Source of the DNA: Crocosphaera watsonii WH 8501
Lineage (GTDB): Bacteria > Cyanobacteriota > Cyanobacteriia > Cyanobacteriales > Microcystaceae
Direction of reading: 5' to 3'
Length of the DNA: 64,000 nt
Assembly: GCF_000167195.1 (NCBI RefSeq)
Contig: NZ_AADV02000002.1
Span: forward strand, 124,001 to 188,000
Position numbers and translations under genes: made by a program. The notes under the pieces are model-generated. The model made no database searches, was not told the DNA's origin, and saw only the letters and a list, made by a program, of their open reading frames with translations. Shown piece by piece: positions 50,404-59,009 of this stretch (position 1 is the first letter of the stretch; each line of letters begins with the position of its first letter).

Positions 50404-52131
50404 ATGGTAGCAACTCCCATCAAAACAAAAAAGCGTTTAAGCATACAAACTGGTGATATTGCCGAAAATACAACTACTATTAGATCCTTAGACTGGGATC
50501 GAGATCGCTTCGACATAGAGTTTGGTCTGCAAAATGGAACCACTTATAACTCCTATATTATTAGGGGTGAGAAGATCGCCTTAATAGACACTTCTCATGT
50601 TAAGTTTCGACAGTTATACATCGATACCATAACCGGACTCATTGACCCCAAAACCATCGATTATTTAGTGGTTAGTCACACCGAACCGGATCATAGTGGT
50701 TTGGTTAAAGATATCTTAGAACTAGCTCCCCAAGCAACTATAGTAGGGTCAAAAGTAGCGATTAATTTTCTAAAAAACTTTATCCATCAACCCTTTGAAT
50801 ACATTGCCGTCAAAACGGGGGATAGTTTGGACTTAGGGAAAGGTCATGTTTTAGAATTTGTCAACGCCCCTAATCTACATTGGCCTGATACGATTTTAAC
50901 CTATGATCAAGGTACCGAAACCTTATACACCTGTGATGTATTTGGGATGCACTATTGTTCTGATGTGCTATACGACGAACACTTAGAGGATATTGCCCCA
51001 GACTATCACTTTTATTATGAGTGTTTGATGGGTCCCAACGCGAGATCGGTGCTTTCGGCCTTAAAACGCATGGACAAGTTAGGTCATTTTTCCTTAGTAG
51101 CCAATGGTCACGGTCCCTTGCTGCGCTACAATGTCCATGAGTTAGTAGAACGTTATCGTACTTGGAGCGAGGAACAAAGCAAAGCCGATAAAAGCGTTGC
51201 TGTGTTTTATATTTCTGATTATGGATATAGCGATCGCCTCTCCCAAGCTATTGCCAAAGGTATCACCAAGGCCGGTGTAGCAGTAGAAATGGTTGATCTA
51301 AAATCAGCCGATGCTCAAGATGTCCACGAGATCGTCAGTGGTTCCGCCGGTTTAGTGGTGGGAATGCCCCCCTTAGAAGGCACTCATAGCAACGAAACCA
51401 CCAGCAACATCGGAACCATTCTCGCCGCAGCTAAAAATAAGCAATATATAGGGATGTTCGAGTCTTATGGTGACAACGATGAACCCATCGACCCCTTATT
51501 AACCAGGTTCCGAGAAGCTGGCTTAAACAAAGGGTTTAATCCTATTCGGGTTAAAGATACCCCCACAGAAGCTATTTATCAACTCTGTGAAGAAGCAGGA
51601 GTCGACTTAGGACAAGCGTTAACCCAAGCCAAAAAAGTCAAGCAAAGGAAGTCCTTAGATAGCGACTTAGATAAAGCCATCGGTCGTATTAGTGGCGGTT
51701 TATATATTCTCACCGCTAATAAGAGAGAACTCAACGGGGCCATGTTAGCCTCTTGGGTAACACAAGCAAGTTTTGACCCCCCAGGGTTTACTGTTGCCGT
51801 AGCCAAAGATCGGGCGATCGAGTCTTTGATGCAGGTAGGAGATAGTTTCGTTTTAAACATCCTCGAAGAAGGGAAATATCAACCCCTGATGAAGCATTTC
51901 CTGAAAAGATTCCGTCCTGGGTCCGATCGCTTTGAAGGGGTTAATGTCCAAACCGCTAACAATGGATCACCTATCCTAGTGGATGCTTTAGCCTATTTAG
52001 AATGCGAAGTTGTCAGTCGGATGGAATGTAGTGATCATTGGATCGTTTATAGCAAAGTGAGCAATGGGCGAGTTTCTAACCCCGATGGGTTAACCGCTAC
52101 TCACCACCGAAAAGTCGGTAACTATTACTAA
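50404..52131 (+). CDS. Flavodiiron protein (A-type with C-terminal flavin reductase domain)
   Basis: A 575-residue cyanobacterial flavodiiron protein that reduces O2 to water with electrons from photosystem I side carriers. The metallo-beta-lactamase-like domain (1-260) has an intact diiron motif SHTEPDHSG (about residues 91-99) plus further His/Asp ligands (NLHWPDT, CDVFGMHY, NGHGPLL). The flavodoxin domain (about 265-410) starts SVAVFYISDYGYSDRLSQ, and the flavin reductase domain (about 425-575) has SGGLYILTANKREL. The canonical ligands favour an Flv3- or Flv4-like protein over Flv1/Flv2, where ligands are replaced; I do not choose between them. A GGAGAGG site precedes ATG 50404. Confidence 0.93.
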   Translation: MVATPIKTKKRLSIQTGDIAENTTTIRSLDWDRDRFDIEFGLQNGTTYNSYIIRGEKIALIDTSHVKFRQLYIDTITGLIDPKTIDYLVVSHTEPDHSGLVKDILELAPQATIVGSKVAINFLKNFIHQPFEYIAVKTGDSLDLGKGHVLEFVNAPNLHWPDTILTYDQGTETLYTCDVFGMHYCSDVLYDEHLEDIAPDYHFYYECLMGPNARSVLSALKRMDKLGHFSLVANGHGPLLRYNVHELVERYRTWSEEQSKADKSVAVFYISDYGYSDRLSQAIAKGITKAGVAVEMVDLKSADAQDVHEIVSGSAGLVVGMPPLEGTHSNETTSNIGTILAAAKNKQYIGMFESYGDNDEPIDPLLTRFREAGLNKGFNPIRVKDTPTEAIYQLCEEAGVDLGQALTQAKKVKQRKSLDSDLDKAIGRISGGLYILTANKRELNGAMLASWVTQASFDPPGFTVAVAKDRAIESLMQVGDSFVLNILEEGKYQPLMKHFLKRFRPGSDRFEGVNVQTANNGSPILVDALAYLECEVVSRMECSDHWIVYSKVSNGRVSNPDGLTATHHRKVGNYY

Positions 52132-52319: not shown

Positions 52320-53618
52320 ATGCTGCGAATCATCACCCAGTCAGCCGAGATAAATACAGAATTGCAAAGAATCGGAGATCGCCCCTATCGGGACGAGATT
52401 CAAGCAAAAGAGGTTGCTGTGGGAGAAATTTTGGAGAGGATTAAACATAAAGGGGATCAAGGACTATTTAAACCCTTCGACACCCTCACCACTCCCACAA
52501 ACCTTAAAGTTAGCGGCTCCGACTTAGACGCAGCCTATCAAAAAATTTCCAAAGAATTACTAGATACCATCCAAACAGCCAGCCAAAAACTAGAAAACTT
52601 CTATAAACAGCAACTGCCCAAACCTTGGGTAAAATTTGAAGAAGACGACGTAGTTGTAGGCAAACGTTACATTCCTGTCCAACGGGCTGGGATCTATGTA
52701 CCCTGGGATCAAGCTTCACCTATCACTCGGGTACTGATGCAAACCCTCCCCGCAAAAATTGCCAAAGTACCAGAGATTATCCTCGTCAGTCCCCCGGATG
52801 AAACTGGCAAAGTTCCCCCCGACATTTTAGTAGCTGCACAAGTGAGTGGAGTTAACCAAATTTACCGCTTAGGAGGAGCCCAGGCCATCGCTGCTTTGGC
52901 CTACGGAACCCAAACTATTCCCAAAGTAGATGTGATCACAGGAACCGGAGGATTAGATGTCATTTTAGCTAAACGCATGGTTTATGGCACTGTCACCACC
53001 GACACCCCTGTGGATGCCTCAGAATTATTTATTATTGCCGATGAAACGGCAAACGAATCCTACATTGCCGCCGACATATTAGCCCAAGTTGAACAAGATC
53101 CCAGTAGTGCAGTGATAGTCCTGACAACGAATTTCAACTTGGCACAAAAAATTCAAAGCAAAGTACAACAAAAATTACAAGATAACGCCCACGGCATTTT
53201 ATCCGAAAAAGCCATTGCTCATTATGGCTTAATTGCGGTGGTGGAGTCCCTAGAACAAGCTGTTAAGATTACCAACCAATTTGCCCCTCATTATCTGATT
53301 TTAACCTTAGCTAAACCTTGGGATATAGTAGAGAAAATTCGTACCGTCGGTAGCCTGTTCATTGGCCAAATGACCCCAAAAGCTATTGGTGATTATTTGG
53401 GTAATGGAGGCGTAATTTTGCCCCCTTCTGGCTTAATTCGTTATGCTTCTTCGGTGCGGGTAGAAACCTTCTTCAAACCCTCCCATCTCATCGAATACTC
53501 TCCCACTGCCCTAAAAAAAATAGCCCGTGTTTTGGAGACTTTGGCCCTCGCCGAAGGTTTTACCGGCAGTGCAGAAGCTATTAATTTACGATTGAAAGAA
53601 GGAGAAAATTGTGACTGA
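52320..53618 (+). CDS. HisD-like protein lacking catalytic residues
   Basis: 432 residues, full length for histidinol dehydrogenase, and clearly homologous along its whole length (IYRLGGAQAIAALAYGTQTIPKVD, ELFIIADETANESYIAADILAQ). Key sites differ from working HisD. GPGN is GTGG (208-211). Zinc-binding QxxH is QVEQ (256-259). The catalytic Glu-His of APEHLEL is APHYLIL (322-328). GPNHVLPT is GNGGVILPP. The C-terminal zinc His (EGLTAHA) is Ser417. Only the GDY Asp358 remains. It probably does not oxidise histidinol. Cyanobacteria often have a second HisD homologue, so this is likely a paralogue with another role. It precedes the beta-CASP gene by 43 bp. Confidence 0.88.
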   Translation: MLRIITQSAEINTELQRIGDRPYRDEIQAKEVAVGEILERIKHKGDQGLFKPFDTLTTPTNLKVSGSDLDAAYQKISKELLDTIQTASQKLENFYKQQLPKPWVKFEEDDVVVGKRYIPVQRAGIYVPWDQASPITRVLMQTLPAKIAKVPEIILVSPPDETGKVPPDILVAAQVSGVNQIYRLGGAQAIAALAYGTQTIPKVDVITGTGGLDVILAKRMVYGTVTTDTPVDASELFIIADETANESYIAADILAQVEQDPSSAVIVLTTNFNLAQKIQSKVQQKLQDNAHGILSEKAIAHYGLIAVVESLEQAVKITNQFAPHYLILTLAKPWDIVEKIRTVGSLFIGQMTPKAIGDYLGNGGVILPPSGLIRYASSVRVETFFKPSHLIEYSPTALKKIARVLETLALAEGFTGSAEAINLRLKEGENCD

Positions 53619-53661
53619 ATAACTGGTAATTGGTAAATCTCATTGACTAAAAACAGTGTCT

Positions 53662-55320
53662 ATGAATGAACGTCTTCCCAAAGCTAAGCATCCTCCAAAT
53701 CGTTTGGCCTGTTTACCATACGGGGTTGGTCATGATGATGAAGGGGTCTGTCTAGAGGTGCAACTGGGTCCTTATCGCATTTTACTGGATTGTGGTTTAG
53801 GGGATCTCAGCCATTTAATCGATCAAACTCAAACTCCAGTTGATGCGGTCTTTTGTAGTCATGCTCACAGGGATCATGCTAGAGGTTTAAAATCACTTCA
53901 TGAGGCTTTTCCTAACTTACCTATCTATGCTAGTCAGGTCACTAAACACCTTCTTCCCCTGAATTGGCCCCAGAAAAATCCCCCCAAAACCTCTAATTTT
54001 TGTCAGGGGTTATCCTGGGAAAAACCCCTGGAATTATTTGATGATTTAACGGTGCAATTATTTCCCTCCGGCCATTTACCAGGGGCTGCGTCTATTCTCT
54101 TGAGTTACCGTACCAGCCAACGAACCTATAAATTACTCTACACAGGAGATTTTTCTTTATCCAATCTCCAATTGGTGGAAGGACTCTCTATCGAAGCATT
54201 ACGGGGTTTATCTCCCGATATTTTGATTATTGAAGGAAGTTATGGGACTATTCGCCATTCCCATCGTCGTCAACAAGAAAAACAACTAATGCAGCGTATT
54301 CATGAGTGTTTGACTCATGGTTACAGTATTGTTTTACCAGTGCCAACCTTGGGGCTAGGACAAGAAATTTTAAAATTATTACGTTCCCATCATCAATTTA
54401 CGGGCCGTGAGTTGGATATTTGGGTGGATGGGGAGGTGGCCAACGCTTGCGATCGCTATTTAGATTTGCTTTCAGAGTTTCCCTTATCGGTACAAAATTT
54501 CGCTAAGCATCAACCTCTTTTTTGGGATGAGCGCATCTGTCCCCGTTTACGTCGTTTGACCCCCCAACAACGGGGAAAAATTGGACAAAATTCCTGCATT
54601 GTCTTAACAGATGATCTCACCACTCTTTATGACGAAGGTTATTTGCTATCAGGGTTATGGGTGATTTTATTCCCTGCTTCTCCCAATGAGGGACAAACCC
54701 TAGAATCACCGGAAATTATGTCCCTGATGGAACGGGTTTCTATTCATAGCGAGTCTTATGTTTTGGCGGAACATAGCGATGGCCGCAATACCACTCAATT
54801 AATTCATAATTTACGACCACAGCATATTATTTTTGTTCATGGTTCAACGATTAATTTAAGAGATTTAACTAATTTAGAAGAGCTACAAAATCGTTATCAA
54901 CTTCATCTCCCATCCCCTGGAACTTTAGTGGAACTTCCCATTGGAGACAAGTTTATTCAACCAGAAGCTCCTTCTTCTGGTGTTTACGAGGGAGAGTTAA
55001 ATGATTTAGAAACCAATATTACCTTGACTTTCCCCCACACCATTGTTAACGATCCTCACTGGCGTTATTTCGCTGATACGGGCCTGCTTGAAGCTCGTTG
55101 GCAAGGGGATGAGTTGGTTTTGCGCGGTATTTCTCAACGGGAACTGCTCAACCAAAGTAAAACCGATCAGATATTTAATGATTTAGATTGTTGTTTGACC
55201 TGTTGTCATTATCGGGGTCAACGTTGTTGGAATTCTCAGTCCCCTCTTTATGGGTTTAAGGTGACACAAGAGGGTTACTGTCCTGTTTTTAAACCTCTAC
55301 CCAAACCAGAAGATGAGTAA
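53662..55320 (+). CDS. Metallo-beta-lactamase fold, beta-CASP-type protein with Cys-rich tail
   Basis: 552 residues from ATG 53662. The N-terminal metallo-hydrolase motifs are CSHAHRDHARG, SGHLPGAAS and YTGDFSLSN. A beta-CASP-like insertion follows (IVLPVPTLGLGQEIL). Then come VLAEHSDGRNTTQLIHNLRPQHIIFVHGS, which close the active site. Such proteins are usually RNA or DNA nucleases (RNase J/CPSF relatives). An extra C-terminal region of about 150 residues ends with CCLTCCHYRGQRCWN and GYCPVF, a cluster of six Cys and a His that could hold a metal. Substrate unknown. It may be co-transcribed with the HisD-like gene. Confidence 0.85.
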   Translation: MNERLPKAKHPPNRLACLPYGVGHDDEGVCLEVQLGPYRILLDCGLGDLSHLIDQTQTPVDAVFCSHAHRDHARGLKSLHEAFPNLPIYASQVTKHLLPLNWPQKNPPKTSNFCQGLSWEKPLELFDDLTVQLFPSGHLPGAASILLSYRTSQRTYKLLYTGDFSLSNLQLVEGLSIEALRGLSPDILIIEGSYGTIRHSHRRQQEKQLMQRIHECLTHGYSIVLPVPTLGLGQEILKLLRSHHQFTGRELDIWVDGEVANACDRYLDLLSEFPLSVQNFAKHQPLFWDERICPRLRRLTPQQRGKIGQNSCIVLTDDLTTLYDEGYLLSGLWVILFPASPNEGQTLESPEIMSLMERVSIHSESYVLAEHSDGRNTTQLIHNLRPQHIIFVHGSTINLRDLTNLEELQNRYQLHLPSPGTLVELPIGDKFIQPEAPSSGVYEGELNDLETNITLTFPHTIVNDPHWRYFADTGLLEARWQGDELVLRGISQRELLNQSKTDQIFNDLDCCLTCCHYRGQRCWNSQSPLYGFKVTQEGYCPVFKPLPKPEDE

Positions 55321-57616: not shown

Positions 57617-57838
57617 GGTGATTTCCGAGAAAGCTTTTCCCATAGGGGGTAATCGCTTGGACTAAAGGCTTTCAAGAAATAAAAGGAACAGAGAGTTAGC
57701 GGATCTTGGTACACAACTTTAAAATTTCATAATTGGCTTGTCTGAAAAAACAGAAGAAATAGATTAAAATGAAGAGGTAAAAAGATTAGAGAGAGTAAAT
57801 TGAAGCTAAAACAGACAAATAATCCCTTAACCCCGTCG

Positions 57839-59009
57839 ATGGTCGATGATTTACGTTTAGCAGTCTCAAAAATGACGGGAGCAGAGCGTCGTTCATTTCA
57901 AGCTGAAATGTGTCTCAAGTATTGTGGAGGAAGTGCCAGACAAACCGAAATCTTGTTTGGTTGGGGGAGAAAAAATGTTCAACTTGGATTACATGAAAAA
58001 CGAACTGGGATAGTGTGTTTAGGATTACAATCAGTCAATAGTGGATGTAAAAAATGGGAGGAAAGATACCCAATAGTTGCCCAATCATTGAAAGAAATAG
58101 CCGAAGCTCACGCACAACAAAACCCCACATTTAATAACCCCATTGCCTATACAAGATTAACGGCGGCTGAAGCCCATTAACAATTAAGAAATCTAGGATA
58201 TAATGGAGAGAAGGTTCCTGCTGCTTCGACAATGGCAGATATTTTAAATCGTTTGGGCTATCGATTAAGAAAAGTGGTAAAAGCTAAACCTAAAAAAAAT
58301 CTCGGAGACGGACGCTATCTTCGAGAATATAGAGAAAAAAGATAGAAAAAAAGACCCTTCTGTGAAACGTTTAAGTATGGATTGTAAAGCAACTGTGGAA
58401 ATAGGAGAATATTCACGTGGCGGACAAACCAGAGGTTATAATCAAGCTCAAGATCATGATATGGGAACTAAAGAAAAATACGTTCCTTGTGGGATTGTAG
58501 ATGAAGAGACAGGGCAACTTTATGTAACTTTTGGAAGTTCTTATAAAACGAGTGATTTCATGGTAGATAACTTGGAGCAATGGTGGACAAGTCTGAGTAT
58601 AACTGAAAAGCAGCAACTAGAGAACATCCAAATTAAAGTTGATAATGGAGCAGAAAATAGTGGAATAAGAAGGCAATTTTTGAAGAGAATGGTAGAGTTT
58701 GCCGACCAAACTAAGAAATCTATTCAATTACTATATTTTCCTCCTTATCACAGTAAATATAATCCCATAGAAAGATGTTGGGGAATTTTAGAGAGGCATT
58801 GGAACGGAACACTTCTGAGAAATGCTCAAACGATGTTAGCTTGGGTAAAAACTATGACATGGAAAGGCTTAAATCCGATAGTTAAGTTAAGTAAAAAAGT
58901 TTATCAAAAAGGCATTTCTTTAACGAAAAAAGAGATGAAGGAAATTGAGAAACGTTTAGAACGTAATCCTCACTTACTTAAATGGGATATTTTGATTAGA
59001 CCCAGTTAG
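57839..59009 (+). pseudogene. ISAzo13-family transposase, copy 2 (stop codon and A8 frameshift)
   Basis: It aligns with copy 1 throughout. Copy 1 has GCCATTAAACAA where copy 2 has GCCCATTAACAA, giving an in-frame TAA at 58178-58180. The homopolymer between the two frames is A8 (58292-58299) instead of A9, so a different shift would be needed. The DDE part (58362-59009) is complete with KVDNGAENSG and YHSKYNPIERCWGILE. Not able to make full-length transposase without two corrections. Confidence 0.85.

Follow-up and report, generated by a model that had tools for sequence, protein, structure and literature searches.

Retention of an apparently non-catalytic HisD homologue beside a foreign-type histidinol dehydrogenase in Crocosphaera watsonii and other cyanobacteria

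Why would a cyanobacterium keep a full-length homologue of histidinol dehydrogenase (HisD) from which the catalytic residues are missing? The question is raised by a gene of Crocosphaera watsonii WH 8501 (RefSeq assembly GCF_000167195.1), located in a stretch of 64,000 nucleotides of contig NZ_AADV02000002.1 (positions 124,001 to 188,000) that we refer to as the window. The original prediction, made from the letters of the window, described a recruited HisD paralogue that had lost its catalytic Glu-His pair and most of its zinc ligands. Here, D denotes the resident HisD homologue of the window (52320..53618, + strand) and its orthologues in the family of the window genome, X denotes a foreign-type HisD, and Y a second foreign HisD type present in five genomes of family f5.

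Active-site residues, selection and predicted fold of the resident protein

The gene is an intact open reading frame and matches the HisD family models almost end to end (PF00815, 433.6 bits over model positions 8-411 of 411; TIGR00069, 382.3 bits versus a cut-off of 243.8), as expected for the full-length homologue that had been proposed. Because D scores above the curated cut-offs of both models, annotation pipelines would name it histidinol dehydrogenase; that family models give this name to copies that are probably dead is a warning for annotation. Residues are numbered after E. coli K-12 HisD, aligned to the window protein. The zinc-ligand numbers in the E. coli protein and the role of His367 are our assumption, and we take the motifs PGGxA, GPGN and GPSE to be the NAD loops of HisD. 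According to PMC11382572, the zinc of HisD is bound by Gln, Asp and two His (one from the other chain), catalysis involves Glu326 and His327, and the fold is a domain-swapped dimer with active sites shared between the chains.

The E. coli residues Q259, H262, E326, H327, D360, H367 and H419 align with QQHYDVS in the window protein (Table 1). Both zinc histidines, the catalytic Glu-His pair and His367 are missing, and the positions of Q259 and D360 are retained. The statement that most zinc ligands are lost is thus right for H262 and H419 but worded slightly too strongly, given the two positions that are kept. The Glu-His pair is indeed gone (APHYLIL versus APEHLEL of the canonical copy), and it is not displaced, since the alignment to the canonical copy is ungapped there. 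The Gln said to replace the zinc His of AEHD is present, with its number, 259, being that of the window protein for E. coli position 262, and Ser417 stands at the C-terminal zinc ligand His419, also correctly called as lost. The motifs GPGN and GPSE are altered (GTGG and DASE), as claimed, and so is PGGxA (PWDQA).

Table 1. Features at and around the resident HisD homologue; coordinates are those of the window.
Feature	Position	Strand	Basis or remark
D, putative HisD-derived pseudoenzyme gene	52320..53618	+	432 aa, ATG start, intact ORF; PF00815, TIGR00069, tree position
PWDQA replacing PGGxA, NAD-loop motif (residues 128-132)	52701..52715	+	alignment
GTGG replacing GPGN (residues 208-211)	52941..52952	+	alignment
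DASE replacing GPSE (residues 232-235)	53013..53024	+	alignment
Gln256, E. coli Q259, retained zinc-ligand position	53085..53087	+	Q in 40/44 family copies
Gln259 replacing zinc ligand His262	53094..53096	+	Q in 39/44 family copies
His324-Tyr325 replacing catalytic Glu326-His327	53289..53294	+	alignments
Asp358, E. coli D360, retained zinc-ligand position	53391..53393	+	D in 38/44 family copies
Val365 replacing His367	53412..53414	+	alignment
Ser417 replacing zinc ligand His419	53568..53570	+	alignment
MBL-fold/beta-CASP-like gene	53656..55320	+	37 bp downstream of D; outside family-wide pattern
Flavodiiron-type protein gene	50404..52131	+	188 bp upstream of D; neighbour only

The substitutions are conserved across the family. 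Forty-four D rows were aligned; a duplicate (L057) and a truncated piece of X from the end of a contig (L121) had been removed. H262, H367 and H419 are absent from all of them (H367 as an alignment gap in 13 and H419 in 4), E326 is absent from 43 and H327 from 28, and Q259 and D360 are retained in 40 and 38, respectively. All seven residues are present in the 30 canonical cyanobacterial HisDs of the same alignment. At position 326 the D copies carry T, Q, H, Y, A, E or D, and at 327 Y, H, T, S, A, I or V. The replacements at the former catalytic positions differ between genera, which argues for loss and not for a new active site.

Conservation was compared using 25 of the 44 D copies. Among the changes listed, the only strongly D-specific ones are I95L, N145Q, V169I, V239L, H262Q, E356K and A363G. 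Of the 207 columns that are conserved in the canonical HisDs, 69 are also kept in D and 56 have been lost from it; the universally conserved columns that are lost lie largely in the NAD loops and the active site. We found no enrichment in D of a patch conserved specifically in cyanobacteria (23/86 specific versus 46/121 universal columns kept, p 0.10). As no such patch stands out, the kept residues look like the core of the fold. From these alignments, we infer that D is a non-catalytic protein derived from HisD.

D is under purifying selection. Its median dN/dS is 0.119 over 21 pairs from the window's genus and 0.116 over 55 pairs from the Microcystis group; five further genera, with 1-3 pairs apiece, give medians of 0.09-0.16. 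For X, dN/dS is 0.05-0.14 in five genera; D is the faster of the two in four of the five genera compared, and in the Microcystis group it is no higher than X (0.116 versus 0.136). Outside the family, values are 0.08-0.18 for damaged copies (four pairs) and 0.02-0.075 for canonical copies (five pairs). No stop occurs within the matched part of 43 of the 44 D frames, the exception being L084, which has a stop codon. In a neutral simulation at 0.64 substitutions per site, about 15 stops are expected and none of 500 frames stayed open.

The AlphaFold2 model of the window protein has a mean pLDDT of 84.3, with a loop (367-376) near the former active site below 50. Foldseek matched the model to HisD structures (E 2.6e-36, TM 0.48) and VIA-align gave a Z of 27.1 to 1k75_A (rmsd 14.8, 350 residues aligned), the top matches of both searches being HisD and HpsN. 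Parts of the monomer model match HisD, and their mutual placement differs from that in the domain-swapped crystals, which may be an effect of modelling a monomer. With its fold predicted to be kept, catalytic residues missing and purifying selection acting on it, D can probably be classed as a pseudoenzyme.

Origin and distribution of the resident and foreign-type HisD

The window genome (6,238,068 bases in 323 contigs) contains exactly two PF00815 genes, D and, on another contig, X (L001:1110-2414). A canonical hisD, which the original prediction had suggested looking for, is not encoded: the genome has no other HisD of the cyanobacterial type, and the second HisD is of the foreign type. The window protein is 54% identical to canonical cyanobacterial HisD versus 31% to the X of its own genome, and its phmmer scores range from 441 to 491 bits with 30 canonical copies and from 200 to 234 bits with 11 X copies. 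In the tree, D is a single clade nested among canonical cyanobacterial HisDs (support 99, starred as well supported; 22 of the 44 D copies used), and its support is 100/98 and 100/99 (both starred) in careful trees built without the active-site columns (11 of the 44 used). By its tree position, D is the original, vertically inherited cyanobacterial HisD and not a side paralogue. Thus, of the claim of a recruited paralogue as opposed to decay, the second half agrees with the open frames and the dN/dS values; the first half does not stand, as D is apparently the original HisD, displaced.

X also forms a single clade (100, starred; 20 rows), and its nearest relatives outside are from Chloroflexota. 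The cyanobacterial X copies adjoin a copy from Chloroflexaceae and then Anaerolineae, and those of Desulfobacterales and Thiotrichaceae are more distant. Within the family of the window genome the X copies do not form a clean single clade: of the six used, the g77 copy (L073) lies apart from the rest, and X may therefore have entered on more than one occasion. A record titled Candidatus Gracilibacteria (L131), probably a mis-binned cyanobacterial contig, has an X copy with 77% identity to that of the window genome.

A survey of 146 genomes from across the phylum gave PF00815 matches in 73, of which 11 belong to the window's family and 62 do not. Among 50 genomes of the family, X is encoded in 45 (in one as a contig-end fragment), D in 44 and both in 41; four have X alone, three D alone and two neither. 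Members include Crocosphaera, Microcystis, Synechocystis salina, Snowella, Hydrococcus, Aphanothece hegewaldii and Chroococcus FPU101, as well as cyanobacterial endosymbionts of Epithemia and Rhopalodia. Two of the three genomes with D alone are 89% and 78% complete. The third, of Microcystis type (G168), was considered as an exception and not counted, as the stretch where X is expected reads N.

D is missing from six small genomes of the family (1.4-3.1 Mb) and retained in the other 44 (2.8-7.9 Mb). Four of the six, of 2.5-3.1 Mb, encode X and hisB (the his gene searched for here), and three of these are endosymbionts, of Epithemia turgida (G138), Epithemia clementina (G181) and Rhopalodia gibberula (G180). 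Since these four genomes have X and hisB and lack D, D looks dispensable for histidine. The remaining two (G147 and G148; 1.4-1.5 Mb), which we take to be UCYN-A, lack X, D and hisB, suggesting that histidine synthesis has been lost. Two genomes of 2.8-2.9 Mb have D, so that the link between loss of D and endosymbiosis is weak.

The X copy of the window genome scores above the cut-offs of the HisD family models and has the Glu-His pair and the two zinc histidines. H262, E326, H327 and H419 are retained by X in all 148 rows (duplicates included), and every row is altered at three other positions (Glu at 259, Thr or Asn at 360, Ala at 367). The 44 X rows in the family-wide residue alignment represent 37 distinct genes. 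An HpsN mutant in the Asp that matches position 360 had no detectable activity, according to PMC11382572. Given the changes at 259, 360 and 367, we infer the histidinol activity of X from its context. Of the non-cyanobacterial genomes with X, 14 were examined (completeness not stated), and in 13 of them X is the only PF00815 gene. These genomes are mostly Chloroflexota and also include Desulfobacterales and Thiotrichaceae. X copies with the unusual metal site are seen at L001 and L168-L202; in most of the genomes examined from Chloroflexota and other phyla, there is no HisD besides this type. Searches with seven E. coli His proteins identified a his gene within 0.5 kb of X in 5 of 80 loci (hisB at L132, L138 and L186, hisC at L169 and hisH at L171) and at a distance of 1.3-3.0 kb in a further 14; none was found in the available flanks of the other 61. 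The hisB gene lies just downstream of X in two family members (L132 and L138) and in a member of the Chloroflexaceae (L186). X is very probably the working HisD of these cyanobacteria.

Recurrence in other cyanobacterial lineages

One or more of the seven residues are missing from the resident HisD in 17 of the 18 X-bearing cyanobacterial genomes that were examined outside the family (13/14 from a first set and 4/4 checked as a prediction). The X-bearing loci L131, L150, L154 and L155 were left out of this count. The damage differs by lineage, from H262Q alone (L204, L206) or H419N alone (L205) to TQKHHHH in Xenococcus PCC 7305; other damaged residents read KTEYNDR, QKQNDYR, QRAQSAP, QSAQQPQ and QRQNDQH. 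The sole exception of the 14 is Pseudanabaena lw0831 (L203), with an intact resident beside X. These residue states suggest an order of events in which X arrived first and losses followed stepwise.

The four genomes of the second set come from a search for X in 389 genomes of the order. It returned 60 matches, of which 42 are in the family of the window genome, 14 outside it and 4 are canonical HisDs (371-375 bits). All 14 of the outside genomes are among the 17 with a damaged resident. Ten had already been examined; for the remaining four, damage was predicted in advance and found in each (QQQKDSL, ERERDRQ, TQKHHHH and QRQNDQH), two of them representing new families. In the Hormoscilla-like genome G351 (94% complete, 7% contaminated), the X copy is itself broken up, by a stop codon and a frame change (L314, L315).

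In genomes with a single HisD, the seven residues are intact in 68 of 68 examined (57, 4 and 7 from three sets). Intact residues are expected of any only copy, and the weight therefore lies on the X-bearing genomes. Six families (f4, f7, f10, f11, f34 and f38) contain an X-bearing genome with a damaged resident versus X-free members with intact ones. All six point in one direction (two-sided sign test, p 0.03 if the families are independent). On the tree of 63 rows, the f4 and f7 residents are placed apart from the other copies of their families. Restricted to well-supported (starred) pairs, the sign test gives four for, none against and one tie (p 0.125).

On the best tree (63 rows, no active-site columns; L236, L290 and L298 removed as long or odd), the intact and damaged states need 8 changes (bootstrap 7-9), at least 4 of which are forced by starred branches. 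A single origin of all damaged copies was tried on a 56-row tree, from which L241 is absent, and rejected (p-AU 0.0019). On the same tree, D and the Xenococcus copy can be joined as one loss (p-AU 0.47); this joining is compatible with the data, so that the exact number of losses is uncertain. Two resident HisDs from Acaryochloris-like metagenome-assembled genomes (L240, L241) show frame changes, either decay or assembly error.

X is not the only foreign HisD found beside a resident. Genome G230, which has no X, combines a damaged resident (L323, QQQHLHH) with a different foreign HisD, L324, whose active site is intact and whose NAD loop is odd (VPAAVA). In five f5 genomes, Y, with an intact active site (L246-L249, L251), occurs beside residents that keep all seven residues (L250, L252, L253, L296 and L297), although the NAD-loop motifs of L250 are altered. 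Together with Pseudanabaena lw0831, the Y genomes indicate that loss need not follow when a foreign HisD is present.

Possible roles of the retained protein

We think it rather probable that the resident hisD was displaced by X and was then kept as a pseudoenzyme for a second role that HisD already had. The lineages of the family, starting from the original cyanobacterial hisD, would have acquired X, once or more than once, and this enzyme, whose type occurs in Chloroflexota and a small number of further phyla, would have taken over histidine synthesis. Freed from catalysis, the resident could lose its zinc histidines, catalytic pair and NAD loops while the fold stayed, and purifying selection would hold it as a non-catalytic protein. 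The function kept may be one of binding or scaffolding, exerted by the folded protein toward a partner and predating the displacement. Because the same loss is seen in several cyanobacterial lineages, it is simplest to assume that HisD already had the kept function; otherwise, several lineages must independently have found a use for a redundant protein. The pattern thus points to a further role of HisD in cyanobacteria.

We suggest, more tentatively and with doubts that outweigh our confidence, that every cyanobacterial HisD is bifunctional, with a non-catalytic role in free-living cells that is hidden because the gene is essential. If so, takeover by a foreign enzyme would let the resident shed its active site and expose the second role alone. 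That role would be dispensable in some endosymbionts and present in cyanobacteria with a single HisD, such as Synechococcus elongatus.

Alternatives are taken here in order of likelihood. D could be a regulatory partner of X, a dead subunit resembling a prozyme, through which the working HisD is activated, stabilised or placed under allosteric control. A second HisD does accompany D or the damaged resident in all genomes examined but three (two incomplete and one reading N at the place of X), and dead paralogues that activate a living partner are known from trypanosomatid deoxyhypusine synthase and AdoMetDC. As in those prozymes, the fold is apparently kept, catalysis lost and the gene retained beside a living homologue. 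Unlike them, the dead copy in cyanobacteria is probably the original one and the living copy foreign, the pattern is recurrent, and X also occurs without D, as the non-cyanobacterial genomes and the four family genomes with X and hisB illustrate. X thus seems to work without D. X and D, moreover, come from different lineages, and their interface would need several independent origins. We regard a regulatory role as unlikely.

D could also have become a different enzyme that uses a new substrate on the same fold. A change of substrate on the PF00815 fold has a precedent in the sulfopropanediol dehydrogenases, which are relatives (PDB search; PMC11382572), and HpsN (DHPS 3-dehydrogenase; 8v35, 8wwe) shares the fold of D and represents another use of the HisD fold. 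HpsN, however, still has its zinc site and Glu-His pair and carries the His126 motif GRY(A/S)H, again as described in PMC11382572. D has neither; the position of His126 is Pro134 in the window protein, as placed through the E. coli alignments. No new conserved catalytic residue is seen in D, in which positions 326 and 327 vary freely and the NAD loops are eroded. A new enzyme appears somewhat less likely still than a regulatory subunit.

Slow death of a functionless gene after its replacement would be consistent with the faster evolution of D than X in most genera compared, with the strong divergence of D in the genus of Synechocystis salina (178-230 bits), with the two broken resident copies outside the family and with the one family copy that has a stop. 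We consider it very improbable, as dN/dS within genera is low, 44 of 50 genomes keep D, and 43 of 44 frames are without a stop over genus- to family-level divergence, where neutrality predicts many. That D is still a histidinol dehydrogenase, using other residues or a mixed dimer, might be argued from its family-model scores and from the sharing of active sites in the domain-swapped dimer, but is scarcely credible for a protein that has lost the two zinc histidines along with the catalytic Glu and its NAD loops, when mutants of the equivalent Glu or His in HpsN lose activity 580- and 240-fold (PMC11382572) and four family genomes have X and hisB without D.

Displacement of the resident by X, with retention for an earlier second role, remains the reading that we prefer. 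With HisD itself (PF00815, TIGR00069; E. coli 1k75, Brucella 4g07), D shares full-length homology, the predicted fold and descent from the cyanobacterial enzyme; it differs in lacking the zinc histidines, Glu-His, His367 and NAD loops and in having a second HisD nearly always present. In xenologous gene displacement, a core step passes to a foreign gene of equivalent function; here, unlike in that process, the resident hisD is not lost but apparently kept as a pseudoenzyme. Displacement and pseudoenzyme coupled repeatedly, and in one direction, would mean that evolution may separate the catalytic from the non-catalytic role of a core biosynthetic enzyme.

For literature on these HisDs we used slr0682 and slr1848, which we take to be their locus tags. 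In PMC3564720, the tags appear in a table row. Across titles and the beginnings of abstracts, drawn mostly from sources other than subscription papers and preprints, we found no account of recurrent HisD displacement with a retained pseudoenzyme. Pseudoenzymes and displacement by foreign genes are known in general; their recurrence here and the implied second role of HisD are new as far as these searches reach.

Gene order points to no partner for D. In ten family genomes, no neighbour within 6 kb of the resident copy is common to three or more. The original prediction pointed to the neighbouring beta-CASP gene, which is present across a 37 bp gap and has a match at 5 of 8 loci of the same genus (flanks of about 500 bp or less); none was found beside nine resident copies in other genera (one on a 3 kb contig). 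Found only in the window's genus, this neighbour says little about the function of D. At canonical hisD loci of other families, two neighbours are conserved (19/30 and 15/30), presumably tatD and rpsT, and they are beside neither D nor X. Farther along the window, adjoining + strand open reading frames at 57800-58180 and 58362-59009 give the impression, from their translations, of pieces of a broken transposase.
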